Below are positions 1,606 through 40,740 of a stretch of DNA of 41,199 bases, piece by piece. The notes under the pieces are model-generated. The model was not told the origin of the DNA. It made no database searches and saw nothing but the letters and a program-made list of their open reading frames with translations. Position 1 is the stretch's first letter; every line of letters starts with the position of its first letter. A program made the position numbers and the translations under genes. The stretch is from a virus. Where the stretch lies: positions 1 to 41,199 of the IMG/VR virus record IMGVR_UViG_3300043395_001343; one strand, written 5' to 3'.

Positions 1606-2136
1606 ATGGCTGCATGGAAAACGGTCGCTTGCGATAGTGCATACGAGGTAAGCGATGAGGGCTTTGTCCGCAGCGTGGACAGGGTTATTGAGCGTAGAGG
1701 AAAGCCGGCAAGGCTCAAAGGCAAAGAGCTGAAGCTGCTGGCTCATTCGCAAGGCTATTGGAGCGTTTGCCTAAGCAACCAAAAGCGCCATCTCGTTCAT
1801 TCACTGGTAATGGAGGCTTTTGTAGGGCCACGCAAAAAAGGAATGGACATAAACCACAAAAACGGCGACAAGAAAGACAATCGCCTAGAAAACCTTGAAT
1901 ACTGCTCACGCAGCCAAAATATGGCTCACGCTGTCCGAACTGGGTTGATGCCGCCTCCCCCTAACAAGAGAGGCGCAAGCCAGCACCTAGCGCGATTGAA
2001 TGAAGCTGATGTTCGCGGCATTCGCCAATGGCACAAAGAGGGGGGAGGCGTTGCTCAGATGGCTCGATTCTTTGATGTAGGCGAAAGCACCGTCAGGAAC
2101 ATCATTAAGCGAAACAGCTGGGCTTGGCTTGACTAG
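1606..2136 (+). CDS. HNH homing endonuclease (NUMOD4-HNH type)
   Basis: The 176-residue protein starts with a NUMOD4-like segment (WKTV...YEVSDEGFVRS, residues 4-23). It continues with an HNH core (VHSLVMEAFVGP and DINHKNGDKKDNRLENLEY, roughly residues 64-102) and ends in a helix-turn-helix DNA-binding part (residues about 128-172, ending NIIKRNSWAWL). Such proteins cut a specific DNA site and copy their own gene into it. It sits between the coat gene and fibre-type genes, flanked by terminators on both sides, and its ATG directly abuts the T run of the upstream terminator with no visible ribosome binding site. It is a mobile insertion rather than a structural gene. Confidence 0.9.
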   Translation: MAAWKTVACDSAYEVSDEGFVRSVDRVIERRGKPARLKGKELKLLAHSQGYWSVCLSNQKRHLVHSLVMEAFVGPRKKGMDINHKNGDKKDNRLENLEYCSRSQNMAHAVRTGLMPPPPNKRGASQHLARLNEADVRGIRQWHKEGGGVAQMARFFDVGESTVRNIIKRNSWAWLD

Positions 2137-2543: not shown

Positions 2544-2558
2544 GGGAAGCTAGGCCAG
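2544..2558 (+). promoter_or_regulatory. GGGAANCTAGG box
   Basis: Consensus copy GGGAAGCTAGGCCAG, 13 nt upstream of the GTG start at 2572 and 2 nt after the upstream stop codon. Confidence 0.6.
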
Positions 2559-2862: not shown

Positions 2863-2877
2863 GGGAAGCTAGGTCAG
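2863..2877 (+). promoter_or_regulatory. GGGAANCTAGG box with hairpin
   Basis: GGGAAGCTAGGTCAG lies 13 nt before the ATG at 2891. Its CTAGGTC (2869-2875) pairs perfectly with GACCTAG (2881-2887) around a 5-nt loop. Confidence 0.6.
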
Positions 2878-4682: not shown

Positions 4683-5632
4683 TGACTGACCTTGAAGAGT
4701 TCCTAGCCCTTGCGATCCGTCAGCGCCGTCTGGAACAGAAGCTGACGAAGCACGCGCTCAAGCGACTGCGTGAAGCACTCGGCTGGGTGCGTGGCCAGAT
4801 CGAGTTTCACGGTCTCAATCAGATCGGTCCCAACCGTGCTGAGCGGCTCAAGATCCTGCGGCTTGAGGTCGAGGCTTACATGCGCGAGCAGTACGCCACC
4901 CCACTGATGCGCACGATGCAGGCCAGTGAGGTGATGAATGACTTCATCGATCAGCAGTTGAAGCTGGCCAGGCAAGTAGTGGTCAGCACTGGTGGCGTGA
5001 CGACAGGTTCATTGACTGCCGCGGCCGTGCTGCCTAAGGCGTTTGAGCAGGTGATCGTCAACGGTGTGCCGTGGGGTGAGTTGCTGTCAGACCGTTTGCC
5101 ACGGTCGGTGGCCGACAAGGTGAGCCGGATGCTCGGATTGTTCCCTGACGATGTGGGCAAGGTGTTTGCTGACGCGGTGATCAGGCCAACTGAACGCCAC
5201 GTCGAAGCGATCATCACCACCGGCGTGCAGGACACCGGCAGCATTGCCCAGCAGCTGCTGTGGCAGATCGAGACGAGCCCTGCATGGCAGGAAGACAACG
5301 AGCAGGTCTGGTCGGCAATGCTCGATAGCGCCGTCTGTGCAACCTGTATGGGGCTCGATGGGAAACGGTTCCCGATGGATTACGTGAAGGTCAGCCCGCA
5401 CCCGAACTGCCGTTGTGTGCTGCTGCCTGAGAGTTTCTTCACGCAGGACCGCCCGGCACGTGGCGATGGCGGCAACACCGTCGATATTCCAACGACGAAA
5501 AAGGGCGTTGAGGCCTGGCTGCGGCAGAACCCAGCTACAGCGTCCAAGATCCTCGGCAAGAAGCGAAGCGAGGCATTTGTTGCCGGAAAACTAAGCCTCG
5601 ATGCTGCTATCAAGGCAGCTGGGGGAACCTAG
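4682..5632 (+). CDS. Minor head protein, phage Mu gpF-like (MuF)
   Basis: The coupled ATG at 4682 gives 316 residues. The C-terminal half holds the MuF signature: WSAMLDSAVCATCMGLDGKRF (in outline) followed by SPHPNCRCVLLP, with the Cys pair and the HPNCRC box near residues 222-250. MuF proteins sit inside or at the portal of the capsid and are needed for morphogenesis or DNA injection. The N-terminal 200 residues are helical. The C-terminal tail (KKGVEAWLRQNPATASKILGK) resembles the small helical domain often appended to MuF proteins. The stop TAG is itself part of a GGGAANCTAGG box. Confidence 0.88.
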   Translation: MTDLEEFLALAIRQRRLEQKLTKHALKRLREALGWVRGQIEFHGLNQIGPNRAERLKILRLEVEAYMREQYATPLMRTMQASEVMNDFIDQQLKLARQVVVSTGGVTTGSLTAAAVLPKAFEQVIVNGVPWGELLSDRLPRSVADKVSRMLGLFPDDVGKVFADAVIRPTERHVEAIITTGVQDTGSIAQQLLWQIETSPAWQEDNEQVWSAMLDSAVCATCMGLDGKRFPMDYVKVSPHPNCRCVLLPESFFTQDRPARGDGGNTVDIPTTKKGVEAWLRQNPATASKILGKKRSEAFVAGKLSLDAAIKAAGGT

Positions 5633-5635
5633 GAG
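5623..5635 (+). promoter_or_regulatory. GGGAANCTAGG box overlapping a stop codon
   Basis: GGGAACCTAGGAG; the TAG inside it is the stop codon of the MuF gene, and the next ATG is 7 nt downstream. Confidence 0.55.
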
Positions 5636-5642
5636 AAAGGCA

Positions 5643-6230
5643 ATGTCGCTGGCAAAGCTTGCGGGATCGACTGTCGATAACAGCTATCTATCCGTAGCTG
5701 AAGCCGATTCAATCGCCGCCACGATGCTCGGGACCCTGAAGTGGAACGACCCGGCGACAACCACTGCAGACAAGGAAAAGGCCCTTGTTCAGGCCACGTT
5801 GCAGCTGGACACTCTGGGATGGGTAGGGACTAAAGCTGCGGCTTCGCAGCCGCTGGACTGGCCTCGCAAGGATGCCGTCTGTGGTGAGAAGTCCTACGGC
5901 GACACAGTGATCCCCCGTGAGATCGAGCTGTCGACGTTTGACCTGGCCGAGGGTCTGCTGAACAACCCTGCTCTGATCACTGGCATCGGTGGTGCAGCAG
6001 GTGGCGGCGGCAGCCCTGGTGAGCTGGTGCCTGGTGTGCCCAATGCAGACCTGAAGCGCCTGAAGCTGGACGTGATGGAACTGGAATGGCGTGATGCAGC
6101 GTCCAGCAGTGGGGTGACGATCAAGACCCCGCTTTCTGTGATGCCTCACCTGACCAGCATCCTGGGATGCCTGACCACCAGCGTGATCCCTGGCGGTCGT
6201 AGTTGGGAAGTGCCTGTTATCCGTGGGTAG
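5643..6230 (+). CDS. Head-tail connector / adaptor protein (DnaT-like phage family)
   Basis: ATG 5643 is preceded by GAGAAAGG and begins a 195-residue protein. The N-terminal segment (STVDNSYLSVAEAD...LQLDTLGWVGTKAAASQPLDWPR in outline, residues 8-79) follows the pattern of a family of phage head-completion adaptors labelled DnaT-like in domain databases: an SYLSVAEAD start, a repeated ATLQLD-type helix and a QPLDWPR end. Such adaptors sit under the portal and link the head to the tail. A Gly-rich linker (residues about 117-125) precedes a C-terminal part with no motif I recognise. Position between MuF and tail-tube genes agrees. Confidence 0.7.
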   Translation: MSLAKLAGSTVDNSYLSVAEADSIAATMLGTLKWNDPATTTADKEKALVQATLQLDTLGWVGTKAAASQPLDWPRKDAVCGEKSYGDTVIPREIELSTFDLAEGLLNNPALITGIGGAAGGGGSPGELVPGVPNADLKRLKLDVMELEWRDAASSSGVTIKTPLSVMPHLTSILGCLTTSVIPGGRSWEVPVIRG

Positions 6231-6248: not shown

Positions 6249-6812
6249 ATGGGTTCGTATGAGCAGCCGTCGCTGAATCTTGAGGAGGCGAAGCAGAAGC
6301 CTCGGCGGCGGAGTTCATCACACCTTGCCAAGCCGTTAAGCAGAGAAGAGCAACGGCGTTTTGGTGAGATGTATGTCGAGCACCAGGGGCTGATCAGGCT
6401 CTTGGGCTCAAAGCTTTGCAGGAAGTATCCAGTCGTCGACAAGCTCGATGTCTATAGCTGCATCGACATTGGGTTCCTGAAGACCTGTCGTGCGTTTGAT
6501 CCCAGCCTTGGCTTCAAGTTCTCAACGCTGCTGACCAAGTTCTGCGAGGGCACGATCCTTCACTTCATCCGTGACCACAACTGGCATGTCAAAGCACCGC
6601 CGAAGGTGCGACAGCTGGGGCAGGCGGCACGAAAGCTGGCAGCAAAGGGGCATTCCATCGCTGAGGTGATTGAGCTGTTGGCGACCAGCAGGGAAGAGCT
6701 TCGGTTGGCCCTCGCCGCCACTGCTGGCATGTATCACGAGCAGAACGAGTGGGAGGGTCACTGCTGCTCAAGGCCAACTCCGATGGAACTGCTGGAGCGG
6801 GAAGAGGGCTAG
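6249..6812 (+). CDS. Sigma-70-like protein with regions 2-3 only (SigB/F/G-like)
   Basis: The 187-residue protein aligns by pattern with sigma-70 region 2 (residues about 38-110: EHQGLIRLLGSKL, then DIGFLKTCRAFDPSLGFKFS). It continues through region 2.4 into region 3 (IRDHNWHVKAPPKVRQLGQAARKL, residues 107-130). The IRD...KVP-R-KEL-like stretch is characteristic of the SigB/SigF/SigG subfamily rather than the housekeeping type. No region 4 helix-turn-helix is present; the C-terminus has HCCSRPTP. It could redirect host RNA polymerase to -10-like sequences only, or act as an anti-host factor. It sits unexpectedly inside the head-tail operon. Structural identity is well supported, activity is inference. 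Confidence 0.78.
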   Translation: MGSYEQPSLNLEEAKQKPRRRSSSHLAKPLSREEQRRFGEMYVEHQGLIRLLGSKLCRKYPVVDKLDVYSCIDIGFLKTCRAFDPSLGFKFSTLLTKFCEGTILHFIRDHNWHVKAPPKVRQLGQAARKLAAKGHSIAEVIELLATSREELRLALAATAGMYHEQNEWEGHCCSRPTPMELLEREEG

Positions 6813-6874: not shown

Positions 6875-7381
6875 ATGGGAGCCTTTATAGACCGAACAGG
6901 GCAGCGTTTTGGGCGCCTTGTTGTTCTTGGCGTTGAAGGCCGGGACAGATGGGGAAAGCTTCTCTGGCTCTGTCAATGTGATTGCGGCCGCACCATCTCA
7001 GCAAGAGCCTCGAACTTAAAAGCCAAGACTTCGAGCTGCGGATGTCGGAGGAGGGAGGTCGCGGCAGCGCTGAAAACCAGTCATGGCTTGCGTGGTACGC
7101 GGACTTATCGAATTTGGGGCAACATGAAAACCCGAGTCACCAACCCAAACTTCAAGGACGCGGAGTTGTATTCAGGGCGTGGCATTGACTGCGATCCGCG
7201 CTGGCTTGCAAGCTTTGAGGCGTTCTTGGCTGATATGGGCGAATGCCCAAGCGATAAGCACAGTCTTGATCGCTGGCCTGACAACGATCGGGGTTACTGG
7301 CCTGACAACTGCCGATGGGCAACAGATATTGAACAGGCCAACAACCGCCGCCCTCGCCGGTCACGGGAAACTAGGCCATGA
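6875..7381 (+). CDS. Homing-endonuclease-like protein with N-terminal Cys-rich domain
   Basis: The 168-residue protein follows a common phage and mobile-element pattern. An N-terminal RTGQRFGRLVVLG is followed by a zinc-binding-like CxCxCG...SCGC segment (residues about 33-57), then YRIWGNMKTRVTNP, YSGRGIDCDPRW, FLADMG and a DRWPDNDRGYWPDNCRWAT core with terminal NNRR. Proteins of this form are usually annotated as HNH-type endonucleases of selfish elements. A GAGGAGA ribosome binding site lies 9 nt upstream of ATG 6875. The 3' end overlaps a GGGAANCTAGG box just before the tail-tube gene, suggesting insertion in front of that gene. Confidence 0.75.
   Translation: MGAFIDRTGQRFGRLVVLGVEGRDRWGKLLWLCQCDCGRTISARASNLKAKTSSCGCRRREVAAALKTSHGLRGTRTYRIWGNMKTRVTNPNFKDAELYSGRGIDCDPRWLASFEAFLADMGECPSDKHSLDRWPDNDRGYWPDNCRWATDIEQANNRRPRRSRETRP
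7365..7378 (+). promoter_or_regulatory. GGGAANCTAGG box before the tail tube gene
   Basis: GGGAAACTAGGCCA lies inside the last codons of the endonuclease gene and 4 nt before the proposed TTG start of the tail tube gene. Confidence 0.6.
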
Positions 7382-7382
7382 G

Positions 7383-7898
7383 TTGGCCGCTTTTGGCCGG
7401 GAGACCAAAATCGGGTTCTTCAACGCATTCGGCTACAAGTTCTTCGCCAAGAAGGGCACCAGCAGCTCGACGGCTCCGACCGTCAGCACTGGCATGACTG
7501 AGGTCAAGAACCTTTCCAACGCTGGCCTGAGTTCCACCACGGATACTCAAGAGGTGATCACCTACGACACCTCGACGAATGGCTGGAAGCAGCAGATCGT
7601 CACCGCCAACAGCTACACCATCAGCTGCGAGCTGAACATTGACACAGCCGACGCTGGCTACAAGCTGCTGAAGCAAGCAGCTCGTGACTCGGCTACCGGC
7701 GTGATGATCGAGTGGTTCCGCGAAACTCCTGCTCCTGCTGTGAGCGGTGGTGGCACCAGCACTGCTGAAACCCACGCAGGCGTTGCCGCTGTGGGCAACT
7801 TCTCAGAGGACATCCAAGCCGGCAACGTGGCCAAGGTGACCTTTGACCTGGTGGGTTACGGCCCCTACGTGCTGACTGAGGCGACCGTTACGCCTTGA
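7383..7898 (+). CDS. Major tail (tube) protein
   Basis: The 171-residue product from TTG 7383 reads (M)AAFGRETKIGFFNAFGYKFFAKKG and continues with the beta-rich, Thr/Ser-rich sequence of tail tube proteins, including SYTISCELNIDTADAGYKLLKQA and a C-terminal VAKVTFDLVGYGPYVLTEATV. Longer starts upstream would read through the endonuclease gene in another frame, so I chose the TTG right after the GGGAAACTAGGCC box. The subunits stack as hexamers around the tape measure to form the non-contractile tail tube. A strong terminator follows. Position before the tape measure gene supports the call. Confidence 0.8.
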   Translation: MAAFGRETKIGFFNAFGYKFFAKKGTSSSTAPTVSTGMTEVKNLSNAGLSSTTDTQEVITYDTSTNGWKQQIVTANSYTISCELNIDTADAGYKLLKQAARDSATGVMIEWFRETPAPAVSGGGTSTAETHAGVAAVGNFSEDIQAGNVAKVTFDLVGYGPYVLTEATVTP

Positions 7899-7948: not shown

Positions 7949-8363
7949 ATTGCTGCCAGTAGCGCACCAAGCGCACCTTGTCCCCGAGCACCTGTTGGAG
8001 GGTGGAACCAAGGAGGCCGGTGGTGCCGTAGTTGAAGCGGAGATCTTCAACCACGCAGTCCATTTCAGGATCACCGGCGAAAGTCAGGCGTGCGGTGGTG
8101 CCTTGAACGATGCGCTGATCAAGAGCTTGGGGGTTGATGCAGTAGCCCTCAAAGACATTGCTGATGACATCAACGCCAGGCTGATTGCGCTCTAGAGCGC
8201 CGCCAGATTTACGCAGGAACAGCTCATAGGAAACGGTCGTGGTGTTGGCGACGACGTTGCCGGTGTCAGGGTCAACCGTGGTCCCAGCATCTGAGACGGT
8301 GAAGACGACTGTTGCGTTCTTAAGAGCGACCAGTGCAGACGCCACCTTCTTACCCCTTTCCAT
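7947..8363 (-). CDS. Hypothetical tail-associated protein on the opposite strand (138 aa)
   Basis: A minus-strand 138-residue protein (MERGKKVASALVALKNATVVF...KVRLVRYWQQ) with beta-rich, soluble composition and no signal peptide. Residues about 26-45 (TTVDPDTGNVVANTTTVSYELF) look like a beta-hairpin, and GYCINPQALD and FAGDPEMDCVVEDLRFNYG follow. The protein looks genuine: good amino-acid balance, and a GGGAAGCTA box immediately before its ATG on the minus strand. It fills the slot between tail tube and tape measure where tail terminator or chaperone genes usually lie, but reads against them. Function not recognised; a tail accessory protein is plausible. Confidence 0.75.
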   Translation of the reverse strand: MERGKKVASALVALKNATVVFTVSDAGTTVDPDTGNVVANTTTVSYELFLRKSGGALERNQPGVDVISNVFEGYCINPQALDQRIVQGTTARLTFAGDPEMDCVVEDLRFNYGTTGLLGSTLQQVLGDKVRLVRYWQQ

Positions 8364-8371
8364 AGCTTCCC
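8361..8371 (-). promoter_or_regulatory. GGGAANCTA box on the minus strand
   Basis: On the minus strand the sequence is GGGAAGCTATG, running straight into the start codon of the gene that begins at 8363. It faces a plus-strand copy 7 nt away. Confidence 0.55.
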
Positions 8372-8378
8372 GGTGACG

Positions 8379-8394
8379 GGGAACCTAGGAGCAG
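8379..8394 (+). promoter_or_regulatory. GGGAANCTAGG box before the tape measure gene
   Basis: GGGAACCTAGGAGCAG, 15 nt upstream of the GTG start of the tape measure gene, divergent from the minus-strand copy at 8361-8371. Confidence 0.6.
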
Positions 8395-14270: not shown

Positions 14271-14285
14271 GGGTAAGCTAGGCCA
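14271..14285 (+). promoter_or_regulatory. GGGAANCTAGG box (one-base variant)
   Basis: GGGTAAGCTAGGCCA lies 13 nt before the ATG at 14299. CCTAG at 14262-14266 can pair with its CTAGG. Confidence 0.55.
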
Positions 14286-17489: not shown

Positions 17490-18010
17490 TTAGCGCTTGG
17501 GGTCATCTCCAGCGGATTAAGAAGGAAGAGGCATCGATCACAGAAATGCCGCTAGCGCAGCTGACTGCATTGACGGCCAATATCAATCGGGATTCAAAGA
17601 AAGCGCCAAAACCGTTTGGGGTAGAGGACTTCTGTCTATTCGCCGACAAGAACCGCAAGAACGATCAGTTCCCACCAGAGGCGGCCGCCATTGCGCTGCA
17701 GCTTCGTCATGAGGGCGAGTGCCCTGAAGCGCTCATAGGGTGTTGGCAAGCTGTGTTGTCGGCTGCTCAACAGACGACAAAGCTGCCTGATGTGCGTGTC
17801 TTGTGGAGCGATGACCGAGCGGTTGCGATCCTGGCCCCAGTTTGGGAAGGCAAGAACATCCGGGGCACGCTGGTGGTCTCGTCAATGGTTGATGGGCCGG
17901 TGGTACTTCGCGATCGTGATCGCCCGCTATTGACGTACACGGTGCGTGTTCCAGCGCGACCGCACTTCGCTTACGTCTCAGCAGGGGAGCTGTTGTTGGC
18001 GGGAAGCTAG
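16845..18010 (+). CDS. Tail assembly chaperone, -1 frameshift product (gpGT-like)
   Basis: At A_AAA_AAG (17363-17369), correctly phased, a -1 slip joins the first frame to a frame that runs open to TAG 18010. The new sequence immediately after the site is strongly protein-like (TDWERIFWDLCRGFPGQWDR, then RTFGRELRQCVISAWGHLQRI) and flows into the frame that starts at GTG 17486, so that GTG is probably not a true start. The T part is about 215 residues and includes FGVEDFCLFADKNRKNDQFP and an EALIGCWQAVLSAA helix. In siphoviruses the fused form makes up a minor share of chaperone and recruits tail tube protein. The stop TAG lies inside a GGGAAGCTAGG box. Confidence 0.75.
17363..17369 (+). other. 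Programmed -1 ribosomal frameshift site
   Basis: The heptamer A_AAA_AAG is in the X_XXY_YYZ register of the upstream frame (codons CTA AAA AAG). It is the classic bacterial slippery sequence, as used in dnaX, and leads into a long open frame 3' of it. Confidence 0.75.
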
Positions 18011-18014
18011 GCCA
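18001..18014 (+). promoter_or_regulatory. GGGAANCTAGG box overlapping stop and start
   Basis: GGGAAGCTAGGCCATG contains the stop codon of the chaperone gene (TAG) and runs into the ATG at 18014. Confidence 0.55.
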
Positions 18015-18557: not shown

Positions 18558-18572
18558 GGGAAGCTAGGGCAG
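18558..18572 (+). promoter_or_regulatory. GGGAANCTAGG box before the S74 fibre gene
   Basis: GGGAAGCTAGGGCAG, 34 nt upstream of ATG 18607. AGGG and CCCT inside and after it can form a small hairpin. Confidence 0.6.
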
Positions 18573-20029: not shown

Positions 20030-20039
20030 CTCTAATCAC
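20030..20039 (+). promoter_or_regulatory. CTCTAATCAC element (plus strand)
   Basis: Exact copy of a 10-mer otherwise found before minus-strand genes at 28-30 kb; here it ends 5 nt before the ATG at 20045. Confidence 0.5.
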
Positions 20040-22371: not shown

Positions 22372-22963
22372 GCTCGTGCATGATGCGGATCAGCTTCTCG
22401 GGATAGGCGCTGTCTGTCGCGTAGCCCTGCCGCTTGAGGTCGTAGGCAGCGTCCTCGGCGGTGTTGTTGTGGTTCACCCCGCGATAGCCGCGATAGTCGA
22501 GATACCAGCGGGTCACCAGGTAATTGATGCAGTCCTTGAGGGTTGGGAAGTCAATGAAGCCTGCAGTGATCGTGACCATGTGGCCATCGACCTCCTCTTG
22601 AGTCACATGCTGAGACCCACCCCCTGAAGATTTGAGGCCAAAGAAATTATTTTTCCCGCTGACAGCCGTGCCGTGGGCGGATTCCAGGGACCACTGAGCG
22701 GCTACCAACTGCGGGAACTTGGCACCACAAGCCTGAGCCGCGGCCTTCACCCCGTCCCAGTTGTTGGGATAGTCAGGCGGAGCGGGCGGGCGTTCGCGGA
22801 ACTTCTCGATCCACTCAGAGTTCTCCGCTAGCAGTGCAGGGTCGCTCTGCTTGAGGTGTTCAAACAGAATCCAGATGGCAGAGACCTGCTGCGGCTCTCC
22901 TTTGTACGCCTCAAAGAAGTCCTGGAACTTCTGGGGCGTGATCAGCACTTGGTCGATTGTCAT
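22364..22963 (-). CDS. Endolysin, N-acetylglucosaminidase type (GH73-like)
   Basis: The 199-residue protein carries the pattern of FlgJ-type glucosaminidases. FPQLVAAQWSLESAHGTAVSG (residues about 83-103) contains the catalytic-type Glu in a QWxLESxxG motif. NNFFGLKSS, FIDFPTLKDCINYLV and the C-terminal YATDSAYPEKLIRIMHEHG follow, as in this family. It would cleave glycan strands of peptidoglycan to release progeny. No signal peptide is present, so a holin or host export is needed; candidate holins lie at 27.5-28.5 kb. It overlaps the start region of the downstream gene and abuts the sigma factor gene by 4 nt. Confidence 0.88.
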   Translation of the reverse strand: MTIDQVLITPQKFQDFFEAYKGEPQQVSAIWILFEHLKQSDPALLAENSEWIEKFRERPPAPPDYPNNWDGVKAAAQACGAKFPQLVAAQWSLESAHGTAVSGKNNFFGLKSSGGGSQHVTQEEVDGHMVTITAGFIDFPTLKDCINYLVTRWYLDYRGYRGVNHNNTAEDAAYDLKRQGYATDSAYPEKLIRIMHEHG

Positions 22964-23880
22964 GCCGAAGCAAGGGCCATTTTGACCCTCAGCTTATGGA
23001 CAATCCTCTTCTCGCATTGCTGGACGTACTGCCTCGAAACACCCAGCTGCTGGGCGACGACATGTTGTGCGTTGCTAAAAAAATCAACCACCTCGGGATC
23101 CTCCCCCAACATCGGGAACCTGAGCTGAATCACCTTCTGCTCCTTCGGGCTGAGCGAGTTGGCAAAGCTCTTCAGCTGACCAAAGCTCTCACGCTCTGCT
23201 TCCTTGTCCAGGTATTCCCACGGCGTTTCGCGCTCGCAGGGGATCAGGTCAACCAGTGCGCTGCGATCCTTCCCGTGCTCATTCGCTACCGCCTCGTCCA
23301 GTGAACGGGCGTTGTTGTTGTGCAGCAGGTAGTTGGTCATCACCTCCTTCGTCACACCGCATTCCTCCGCGATCTCCTCGATGCGTGGTGCGCGGCCATT
23401 GGCCTCGGTGAACCTGGGGATGAAGTACCGCGCTTTGGTCAGTACATCAACGGCATTGATCGGCAGCCTGATGCTGCGGTCAAACTGGCTGACAGCACGA
23501 CCCACACCCTGGCGGATCCACCAGTAGGCATAGGTCGAGAACTTATAGCCCTTCTCAGGGTCGAACTTCTCAACGCCACGAATCAGACCGATCACGCCCT
23601 CCTGCAGGAGGTCCGCCATGTCCAGGGTCTTACAGCGTGCGCAGTATTTCTTGGCGAGCAGTGTGACCAGTCTGAGGTTCGCGAGGATCATCCGATCCTT
23701 CGCTCGCTTACCAGTGCGAAGGATGCGGCGTTCGGTCATTTCATACGGACCGCTGGGCTTCTCTTCCAGCAGGCGCATCATGCGCTGAACAGAGTGGCCC
23801 AGTGTGATCTCTTCCGCAGGTGTCAGCAGAGGGACGCGACCTGCGTGGTTTAGATAAAACTGAGTGGATGAATCGGCCAC
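22960..23880 (-). CDS. RNA polymerase sigma factor, cyanobacterial RpoD-like (group 1/2)
   Basis: The 306-residue protein has regions 1.2 to 4. Residues about 7-28 (FYLNHAGRVPLLTPAEEITL) match region 1.2 of cyanobacterial principal sigma factors. ANLRLVTLLAKKY and FDPEKGYKFSTYAYWWIRQG (about 100-125) are region 2. AEECGVTKEVM lies in region 3. SLSPKEQKVIQLRF and LGVSRQYVQQCEKRIVHKLR form region 4. It should direct host RNA polymerase to phage promoters. In region 4 the text between the two motifs (GEDPEVVDFFSNAQHVVAQQ) is longer than usual. It is coupled to the endolysin gene, so it is probably expressed with lysis and DNA genes on the minus strand. Confidence 0.92.
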   Translation of the reverse strand: MADSSTQFYLNHAGRVPLLTPAEEITLGHSVQRMMRLLEEKPSGPYEMTERRILRTGKRAKDRMILANLRLVTLLAKKYCARCKTLDMADLLQEGVIGLIRGVEKFDPEKGYKFSTYAYWWIRQGVGRAVSQFDRSIRLPINAVDVLTKARYFIPRFTEANGRAPRIEEIAEECGVTKEVMTNYLLHNNNARSLDEAVANEHGKDRSALVDLIPCERETPWEYLDKEAERESFGQLKSFANSLSPKEQKVIQLRFPMLGEDPEVVDFFSNAQHVVAQQLGVSRQYVQQCEKRIVHKLRVKMALASA

Positions 23881-27084: not shown

Positions 27085-27106
27085 TGTGAGTAGTGAGTGA
27101 CCGGGA
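27085..27106 (-). repeat. 22-bp direct repeat, copy 1 (leader of the RlpA-like gene)
   Basis: Identical over 22 bp to 30161-30182. It lies 7 nt upstream of the TTG start and exactly 18 nt from the GGTATGCCA element at 27125. Confidence 0.75.
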
Positions 27107-27124
27107 ACCCCGATGCGCCAATGG

Positions 27125-27133
27125 TGGCATACC
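27125..27133 (-). promoter_or_regulatory. GGTATGCCA element upstream of the RlpA-like operon
   Basis: Exact 9-mer copy; paired with the 22-bp repeat at a fixed 18-nt distance, as at 30201. TTGACA lies further upstream on the minus strand (about 27145-27150). Confidence 0.6.
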
Positions 27134-27550: not shown

Positions 27551-27560
27551 GTGATTAGAG
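27551..27560 (-). promoter_or_regulatory. CTCTAATCAC element with no minus-strand gene behind it
   Basis: Minus-strand copy located after the stop of the gene at 27568. The downstream minus-strand sequence is now the end of the convergent basic-protein gene, so the element may be a relic. Confidence 0.4.
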
Positions 27561-30160: not shown

Positions 30161-30182
30161 TGTGAGTAGTGAGTGACCGGGA
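30161..30182 (-). repeat. 22-bp direct repeat, copy 2 (leader of the secreted HExxH gene)
   Basis: Identical to 27085-27106 over 22 bp and separated by the same 18 nt from a GGTATGCCA element. Confidence 0.75.
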
Positions 30183-30200
30183 CCCCCGGTGAATCAATAA

Positions 30201-30209
30201 TGGCATACC
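30201..30209 (-). promoter_or_regulatory. GGTATGCCA element upstream of the secreted HExxH gene
   Basis: Exact 9-mer. On the minus strand TG precedes it, giving TGGTATGCC, an extended -10-like form. Confidence 0.6.
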
Positions 30210-33867: not shown

Positions 33868-34028
33868 TGGAAATCGAAGTGCTGGACGCTGAACTGATCA
33901 AGGTCACCCTCACCCGTGACGGCTTCAGCGCTTCAGCCTTTGTCACCAGTCACCACCTCGTTGAAGACAAGCGCCGTCAGCTTGAAGCTGCCATCGATAG
34001 GGAAGCCCTAGATGCCTTCAATCCTTGA
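33867..34028 (+). CDS. Small protein between terminase subunits (53 aa)
   Basis: ATG 33867 is coupled to the small terminase stop, and the frame ends at TGA 34028, overlapping the large terminase by 17 nt. The product starts MEIEVLDAELIKVTLTRDGF and has a strand-strand-helix pattern (SHHLVEDKRRQLEAAIDREA). Coupling on both sides indicates translation. Probably a packaging accessory protein; unnamed. Confidence 0.7.
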   Translation: MEIEVLDAELIKVTLTRDGFSASAFVTSHHLVEDKRRQLEAAIDREALDAFNP

Positions 34029-36067: not shown

Positions 36068-36106
36068 GATTAGTGAATGTCACTAGTGCTCCGTATGCTG
36101 AGGGAA
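36068..36106 (+). promoter_or_regulatory. Spaced intergenic element, copy 1
   Basis: GATTAG (36068), CACTAG (36081), CGTAT (36092) and GAGGGAA (36100) have exactly the same spacing as in copy 2 at 37466-37504. Promoter candidate for the peptidase-bearing basic protein. Confidence 0.6.
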
Positions 36107-36114
36107 GCTAGGCC
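36102..36114 (+). promoter_or_regulatory. GGGAANCTAGG box before gene 36132
   Basis: GGGAAGCTAGGCC, 17 nt upstream of the ATG; flanking CCGTA (36091-36095) and TACGG (36115-36119) can pair. Confidence 0.6.
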
Positions 36115-37471: not shown

Positions 37472-37504
37472 TCGCTTTCACTAGCCCTACGTATCCCGAG
37501 GGAA
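37466..37504 (+). promoter_or_regulatory. Spaced intergenic element, copy 2
   Basis: GATTAG, CACTAG, CGTAT and GAGGGAA at the same spacing as copy 1. ATCCCGAGG (37493-37501) and CCTCGGGAT (37506-37514) form a 9-bp stem closed by a GAAA tetraloop. Confidence 0.65.
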
Positions 37505-37512
37505 ACCTCGGG
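37500..37512 (+). promoter_or_regulatory. GGGAANC box before gene 37531
   Basis: GGGAAACCTCGGG, 18 nt upstream of the ATG; lies in the hairpin described for copy 2. Confidence 0.55.
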
Positions 37513-38284: not shown

Positions 38285-38297
38285 GGGAACCTAGGTC
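38285..38297 (+). promoter_or_regulatory. GGGAANCTAGG box before the portal gene
   Basis: GGGAACCTAGGTC, 14 nt upstream of ATG 38312; CCTAGG is repeated at 38265-38270. Confidence 0.6.
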
Positions 38298-40723: not shown

Positions 40724-40740
40724 GGGAATCTAGGGGGCAG
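40724..40740 (+). promoter_or_regulatory. GGGAANCTAGG box before the last gene
   Basis: GGGAATCTAGGGGGCAG, 35 nt before ATG 40776; GGGCAGC (40735-40741) can pair with GCTGCCC (40761-40767). Confidence 0.55.

Follow-up and report, generated by a model that had tools for sequence, protein, structure and literature searches.

The gene at 6249..6812 (+ strand, ATG start, 187 aa) of a 41,199-base IMG/VR virus record encodes a sigma factor without region 4. We refer to the whole record as the window and number all positions on it. With a probability of roughly 70%, judged from sequence comparisons, we read this gene as a late-transcription sigma factor of the phage, which belongs to the SigF/SigB class, has lost region 4 and would read a single −10-type element.

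Sigma-70 superfamily region 2, which serves core binding and −10 recognition, is present in the 187-aa protein. The Pfam Sigma70_r2 model matches aa 42-112 (6372..6584, + strand) with an E-value of 5.9e-5 and 23.2 bits, 0.8 bit below the 24-bit cut-off; several members of the family score above it, and at E<=0.01 the model is matched by 26 of 28. The PHROG_351 profile (RNA polymerase sigma factor) covers aa 34-156 at 8.8e-16 and the NCBIfam SigBFG model aa 66-159 at 1.7e-9. The NCBIfam models most often matched in the family are cyanobacterial-type SigF (NF005644, 27/28) and SigBFG (TIGR02980, 26/28), with scores that stay far under the curated cut-offs for full-length sigmas, which the lack of region 4 would lead one to expect. 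A profile of the 28 homologues matches the Staphylococcus aureus SigB chain 8x6g_H over regions 2 and 3 (2.4e-8), and Sigma70_r4 matches none of the 28 family members. The sequence-only reading of the window had described sigma regions 2 and 3 of SigB/F/G type and no region 4, and the profiles bear this out. Regions 2 and 3 are nearest to those of the SigB/SigF/SigG group 3; region 4 and a full-length curated score, which membership of that group also calls for, are absent.

Conservation within the family falls on the parts of the protein expected to contact DNA and the polymerase core. The residues S92, T93, G101, H105, R108, N111, W112, A116, P117, R121 and G124 are invariant in the 28 homologues, and positions assigned to regions 2.3-2.4 and 3.0 by the SigB alignment are among them. 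A116, P117, R121 and G124 belong to a region 3.0/3-like stretch at aa 113-156 (6585..6716, + strand), which the alignment to 8x6g_H traverses. The AlphaFold2 model of the window protein is of moderate quality (pLDDT 70, pTM 0.50). The PDB matches listed by Foldseek for this model are sigma factors or sigma-containing models and complexes, and a viral-library search with the same model matched many phage sigma factors. Where region 4 would start, the protein carries a conserved C-terminal peptide (aa 175-186; 6771..6806, + strand), which reads RPTPMELLEREE in the window and RPTPWDVLEAEE in other members. Its family pattern, P-T-P-M/W-E/D-x-L-E, is hydrophobic-acidic, with P, L and E invariant in the 28 homologues.

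The gene occupies a fixed place among structural genes. Loci were collected by means of the head-tail adaptor Ad1, the tail-tube protein and the sigma profile, and were collapsed to 133 distinct loci. The sigma gene lies between the Ad1 and tail-tube genes in 124 of the 125 distinct IMG/VR loci that have both flanks. The order in the window is Ad1 (5643..6230, + strand; PHROG_477 at 6.4e-22 on the open frame from 5601, with the start at 5643 taken from relatives), the sigma gene, an HNH gene and the tail-tube gene (7383..7898, + strand), which has same-order homologues in relatives; the place of the latter ahead of the tape-measure gene suggests that it encodes the major tail protein. The sigma gene was thus correctly located inside the head-tail operon by the sequence-only reading, whose remark that structural operons seldom carry sigma genes stands as a general statement but fails for this family of cyanophage-like viruses. 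Two HNH endonuclease genes sit amid the structural genes of the window (1606-2136 and 6875-7381), the second of them overlapping the box of the tail-tube gene at 7365. Elsewhere, for example in L005, L009 and L011, the tail-tube gene directly follows the sigma gene.

Relatives of the 187-aa protein share 43-56% identity with it, and dN/dS against five of them is 0.04-0.11, which indicates that the gene is maintained under purifying selection. The synteny and the dN/dS values led us to reject a chance open reading frame. A search for the family in 84,980 bacterial and archaeal genomes gave one match, a contig of 3,283 bases in a Rhodoferax MAG (L188), probably a misbinned phage fragment.

The strict place between the head-tail connector and tail-tube genes, together with a conserved C-terminal tail that has no sigma counterpart, would also suit a protein whose fold derives from sigma but which serves in the virion, in assembly or as an injected factor. 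We regard this as highly improbable. In region 2, the stretches that bind core and DNA are still recognisable and conserved, and the association with the boxes described below would be left unexplained. In addition, the distant P-SS2 counterpart, ORF 003, is reported with 0 peptides in purified virions (PMC2784084).

The structural genes of the window and its relatives are preceded by a short box with the consensus GGNAANCTAGG and the core GGNAANCT (234 nonredundant sites). Since the selection of sites for the consensus table demanded GGNAANCT, the table is informative solely at the flanks and at positions 3, 6 and 9-11. An exact-word search for boxes in relatives was unsuccessful because positions 3, 6 and 9 vary, and the boxes were recovered by aligning the sequences that precede orthologous genes. 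In distant relatives such genes carry variants at the matching place, such as GGAAACCTCGG, GGAATCCTAGG and GGCAACCTAGG, and the divergent gene of relatives is preceded by the variant GGAAACCTTGG. The third base is free across relatives (GGNAA), so that the earlier description of late boxes as starting with GGGAA fits the window but not the wider family.

The boxes are situated about 28-33 nt upstream of structural-gene starts and are oriented with the gene, including in the divergent pair. A start codon is found 22-36 nt past the first G at 59% of sites, compared with 11% for random positions. No position between −45 and −1 exceeds 0.2 bit, and hence there is no −35 or −32 element upstream of the boxes. 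Downstream, an A-rich spot at box positions 14-15 reaches 0.54 bit when sequences are aligned on the box and at most 0.23 bit when they are aligned on the start codon, and it stays at 14-15 for most box-start spacings of 27-36 nt. As the spot follows the box and not the start codon, it is unlikely to be a ribosome-binding site, and a Shine-Dalgarno origin is disfavoured. Taking A4 as −11 and T8 as −7 puts the start point at box position 14-15. This anatomy argues for a single-element promoter. The proposed match of the boxes to SigB-type −10 sites is partial: they contain a SigF-like −10 core, but GGNAANCTAGG exceeds a SigB −10 in length and lacks a −35 partner.

On the + strand of the window the pattern GGGAANCTAGG is found as GGGAAGCTAGG at 2544..2554 and 2863..2873 (each 28 nt ahead of a start, at 2572 and 2891), 18001..18011 (before 18014), 18558..18568 (before 18607) and 36102..36112 (before 36132); as GGGAACCTAGG at 5623..5633, before Ad1 and at the head of the transcription unit with the sigma gene, at 8379..8389, before the tape-measure gene (8410), and at 38285..38295, before the portal gene (38312); as GGGAAACTAGG at 7365..7375, before the tail-tube gene and overlapping the 3' end of the HNH gene; and as GGGAATCTAGG at 40724..40734, close to the right end of the record. 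Near variants are GGTAAGCTAGG at 14272..14282 (+ strand, before 14299), GGAAACCTCGG at 37501..37511 (+ strand, 30 nt ahead of 37531) and GGGAAGCTATG at 8361..8371 on the − strand, which precedes the divergent gene and stands back to back with the tape-measure box. The 16-base form CGGGAARCTAGGYCAG has 10 matches in the window at up to 3 mismatches, where 1.0 is expected and shuffled sequences give at most 4. For the leftward 138-aa open frame (− strand, called start 8363), the box placement and the relatives indicate that translation probably begins at a GTG some 28 nt past the box; the called ATG falls inside the box. Box-like sequences with one extra base, GGTAAGCCCTA and GGGAAGCCCTAG, precede the genes for the major capsid protein and the terminase (~444-466; 34000-34012) and may be degenerate boxes.

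The window also contains other repeats. The element CTCTAATCAC occurs near upstream of start codons of mostly leftward, presumably early, genes (motif starts at 27560, 28034, 28468 and 29652 on the − strand and at 20030 on the + strand) and is possibly the equivalent of the late box for early genes. Two copies of a 49-nt repeat with 86% identity (27085-27133 and 30161-30209) directly precede two leftward genes; on the − strand the repeat ends in CACTACTCAC, which is related to CTCTAATCAC.

Across the family the boxes are both abundant and consistently placed. Sites recovered near starts with a position weight matrix amount to 3.3 per 10 kb in gene-bearing loci and 0.09 in reversed sequences, a 37-fold difference; since the matrix was derived from the loci scanned with it, the evidence lies in this contrast with the reversed control and not in the absolute score. 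Boxes recur at orthologous places, before the tail-tube gene in 123 of 128 loci and before Ad1 in 87 of 118, at a protein divergence of about 50%. The sigma gene itself is preceded by a box in 1 of 125 loci, a figure that doubles as an internal background. The free positions of the box share letters within a genome more than chance predicts (465; shuffles average 411 and peak at 439, so that 0 of 2000 reach the observed value), and position 3 is mostly G in the clade of the window and C in the group of L083. That the boxes of one genome drift together implies a trans-acting reader, and the set behaves as a regulon would under such a reader. Shared ancestry of neighbouring promoters offers no easy explanation because the sites precede unrelated genes; per-genome composition bias may add to the likeness of boxes within a genome.

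The presence of the boxes follows that of the gene. In the locus L015 the sigma gene is missing, while Ad1 and the tail-tube gene are kept with 49 nt between their open frames. This locus has zero boxes in 6.1 kb, compared with 1-5 in each of the 63 gene-bearing loci (63/63) with a comparable interval. An unrooted tree of Ad1 and the tail-tube protein puts L015 on the branch separating two gene-bearing groups. In an Ad1 tree rooted with AG-345-A17, L015 joins the group of the window (97/94), where the long outgroup branch makes the root uncertain; the nested position points to loss of the sigma gene in L015. Among gene-less outgroups, S-2L has zero sites near starts and KBS-S-2A has one, and the AT-rich AG-345-A17 has merely three low-scoring sites. 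A scan for more gene-less relatives of L015 returned just L015 itself and one 33% match. The linkage between gene and boxes is correlative, with a single nested gene-less relative known from a 6.1-kb fragment. The idea that the protein reads the boxes was open to refutation by relatives that keep the boxes without the gene, and it came through this comparison.

A different account of the same linkage is that the boxes are operators or start-associated regulatory sites, resembling mycobacteriophage stoperators or start-associated sequences (SAS), read by another protein or acting at the mRNA level, and that the short gene is linked to them by descent alone. The gene and the boxes could each be ancestral features, and a precedent for asymmetric, gene-oriented short sites by gene starts exists in the 13-bp SAS of cluster K mycobacteriophages (PMC3203893), whose sequence GGGATAGGAGCCC is not matched by the consensus GGNAANCTAGG and whose reader is unknown. 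We nevertheless find this account quite unlikely: the box resembles a SigF −10 element with its A(−11)/T(−7) spacing, the A-rich spot at the expected +1 is fixed to the box, and L015 appears to have lost gene and boxes together.

If the boxes are promoters, they might have another reader. The window encodes a full-length sigma factor with regions 1.2, 2, 3 and 4 at 22960..23880 (− strand), so that the gene at 6249..6812 is rightly called the second; a recent duplication of one from the other was rejected, as they share 30% identity over 66 aa only. Either this full-length sigma or the SigF of the host could recognise the boxes, with the short protein in an auxiliary role at the beta' clamp, such as that of an appropriator or competitor. 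The full-length sigma is found in 16 of 20 long gene-bearing contigs, and this conservation in most relatives counts against the late-sigma reading, as the full-length sigma could be the reader of the boxes in those phages. Promoters of the host SigF have GGTAA as their −12 element, and the short protein is missing the part by which sigma normally holds on to the beta flap and the −35 element. We consider such a reader unlikely. A −35 or −32 element would be expected before the boxes for a sigma with region 4, and there is none. KBS-S-2A has the full-length sigma and essentially no boxes, and loss of the short gene accompanies loss of the boxes. Furthermore, the short gene and the boxes are kept in G005 (45.5 kb), G009 (45.8 kb) and G015 (40.1 kb), contigs in which a full-length sigma was not detected and which are not certified complete and may be incomplete. 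Against a helper role, few residues of the protein are as well conserved as those of regions 2.4 and 3.0.

The late-sigma reading has a well-studied parallel. T4-related phages have thoroughly characterised late sigma factors that are without region 4 and recognise one −10-type box, and their gp33 is a co-activator that mimics region 4. The T4 factor gp55 has 185 aa, sigma domain 2 only and a conserved hydrophobic-acidic C-terminal clamp epitope, and T4 late promoters consist of a single −10 box and show no conserved −35 (PMC2988020). The 187-aa protein is alike in size (about 185 aa), in having sigma region 2 and in lacking region 4, and the genomes are alike in having single −10-type boxes without −35 elements before virion genes, the pairing of box and protein being inferred in our case. 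The C-terminus of gp55, SPSLDFLYEAND, recalls RPTPMELLEREE in position and composition, a by-eye resemblance that we take as a lead only. The differences are that the box here is GGNAANCTAGG and that of T4 is TATA-type, and that the 187-aa protein, unlike gp55, keeps a region-3-like stretch; neither a counterpart of gp33 nor a phage clamp came to light in the analysis. Descent from gp55 was rejected, with an hhalign probability of 0.2% and with gp55 in PHROG_234 and the 187-aa protein in PHROG_351. Most likely, the protein works like gp55 without being a detectable homologue of it.

The closest cellular models are cyanobacterial. Promoters of Synechocystis SigF have TAGGC at −32 and GGTAA in the −12 region (review PMC2758279). 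The GGNAA half of the box equals this −12 element, and regions 2 and 3 of the 187-aa protein are matched best by cyanobacterial SigF and group 3 models. In contrast to cyanobacterial SigF, the protein has no region 4, and the boxes have no −32 element and run on with CTAGG.

A more distant case is that of P-SS2, a cyanophage isolated on Prochlorococcus MIT9313. It encodes a sigma factor of the same class (group 3) with 213 aa, in which Pfam recognises region 2 only and no region 4; the similarity to the 187-aa protein is weak (37% identity over 74 aa), the C-terminus differs, and the gene adjoins the terminase gene, outside the head-tail cluster. According to the part of the P-SS2 publication used here, the phage also has a second, group 2 sigma, and its authors proposed a special regulon for the group 3 sigma, with no box described in that part (PMC2784084). 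We found five GGNAANCTA[GA] sites 24-40 nt before annotated starts of P-SS2, against 0.15 expected (17615, 27957 and 44092 in L213, which is P-SS2; 13224 and 23094 in L214); the starts in question are those at 17648, 27986, 44129, 63255 and 73129. The full matrix gives a weak signal of 0.4 per 10 kb; the core pattern at annotated starts is clear. A P-SS2-like version of the protein (PHROG_36098) was also observed on the related contig L130, which has box-like sites and, 9 kb ahead of its tail-tube gene, a gene (551-1672) for a sigma-like protein of 374 aa with long additional sequence at both the N- and the C-terminus.

From the sequences we infer polymerase binding, box reading, start point, timing and feedback of the short protein as follows. 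It would dock on the beta' clamp of the host RNA polymerase through region 2 and read GGNAANCTAGG as a lone −10-type element upstream of virion genes, with no −35 contact, and transcription would start at box position 14-15, on the A-rich spot. Positive feedback is expected because the sigma gene has no box of its own and lies within the unit opened by the Ad1 box, so that it would amplify its own expression together with that of the head and tail genes; the gene layout makes such feed-forward wiring plausible. To be made before its own operon is switched on, a sigma factor encoded there requires a different promoter or read-through; none was identified, and this counts against the late-sigma reading. 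Read-through from earlier genes and the full-length sigma are candidates for supplying the first molecules. We also entertain, as a tentative and rather doubtful extension, that the C-terminal peptide docks on a sliding clamp, probably that of the host, which would couple late transcription from GGNAANCTAGG to DNA replication in these siphoviruses and make this an independent counterpart of the T4 late system.

In the open-access literature we found no earlier description of such a phage sigma lacking region 4 or of a late promoter of cyanosiphoviruses. If our reading is true, the phage provides a second, unrelated case, of the SigF class, and phages would be able to arrive repeatedly at a dedicated late-promoter system by dropping region 4. 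The sigma factor and its box may also serve as a compact orthogonal sigma-promoter pair for cyanobacteria. The idea can be tested in P-SS2, which has a cultured host. For a widespread and little-studied group of phages, the boxes would define a late regulon, and late genes and corrected start codons would become predictable from sequence.
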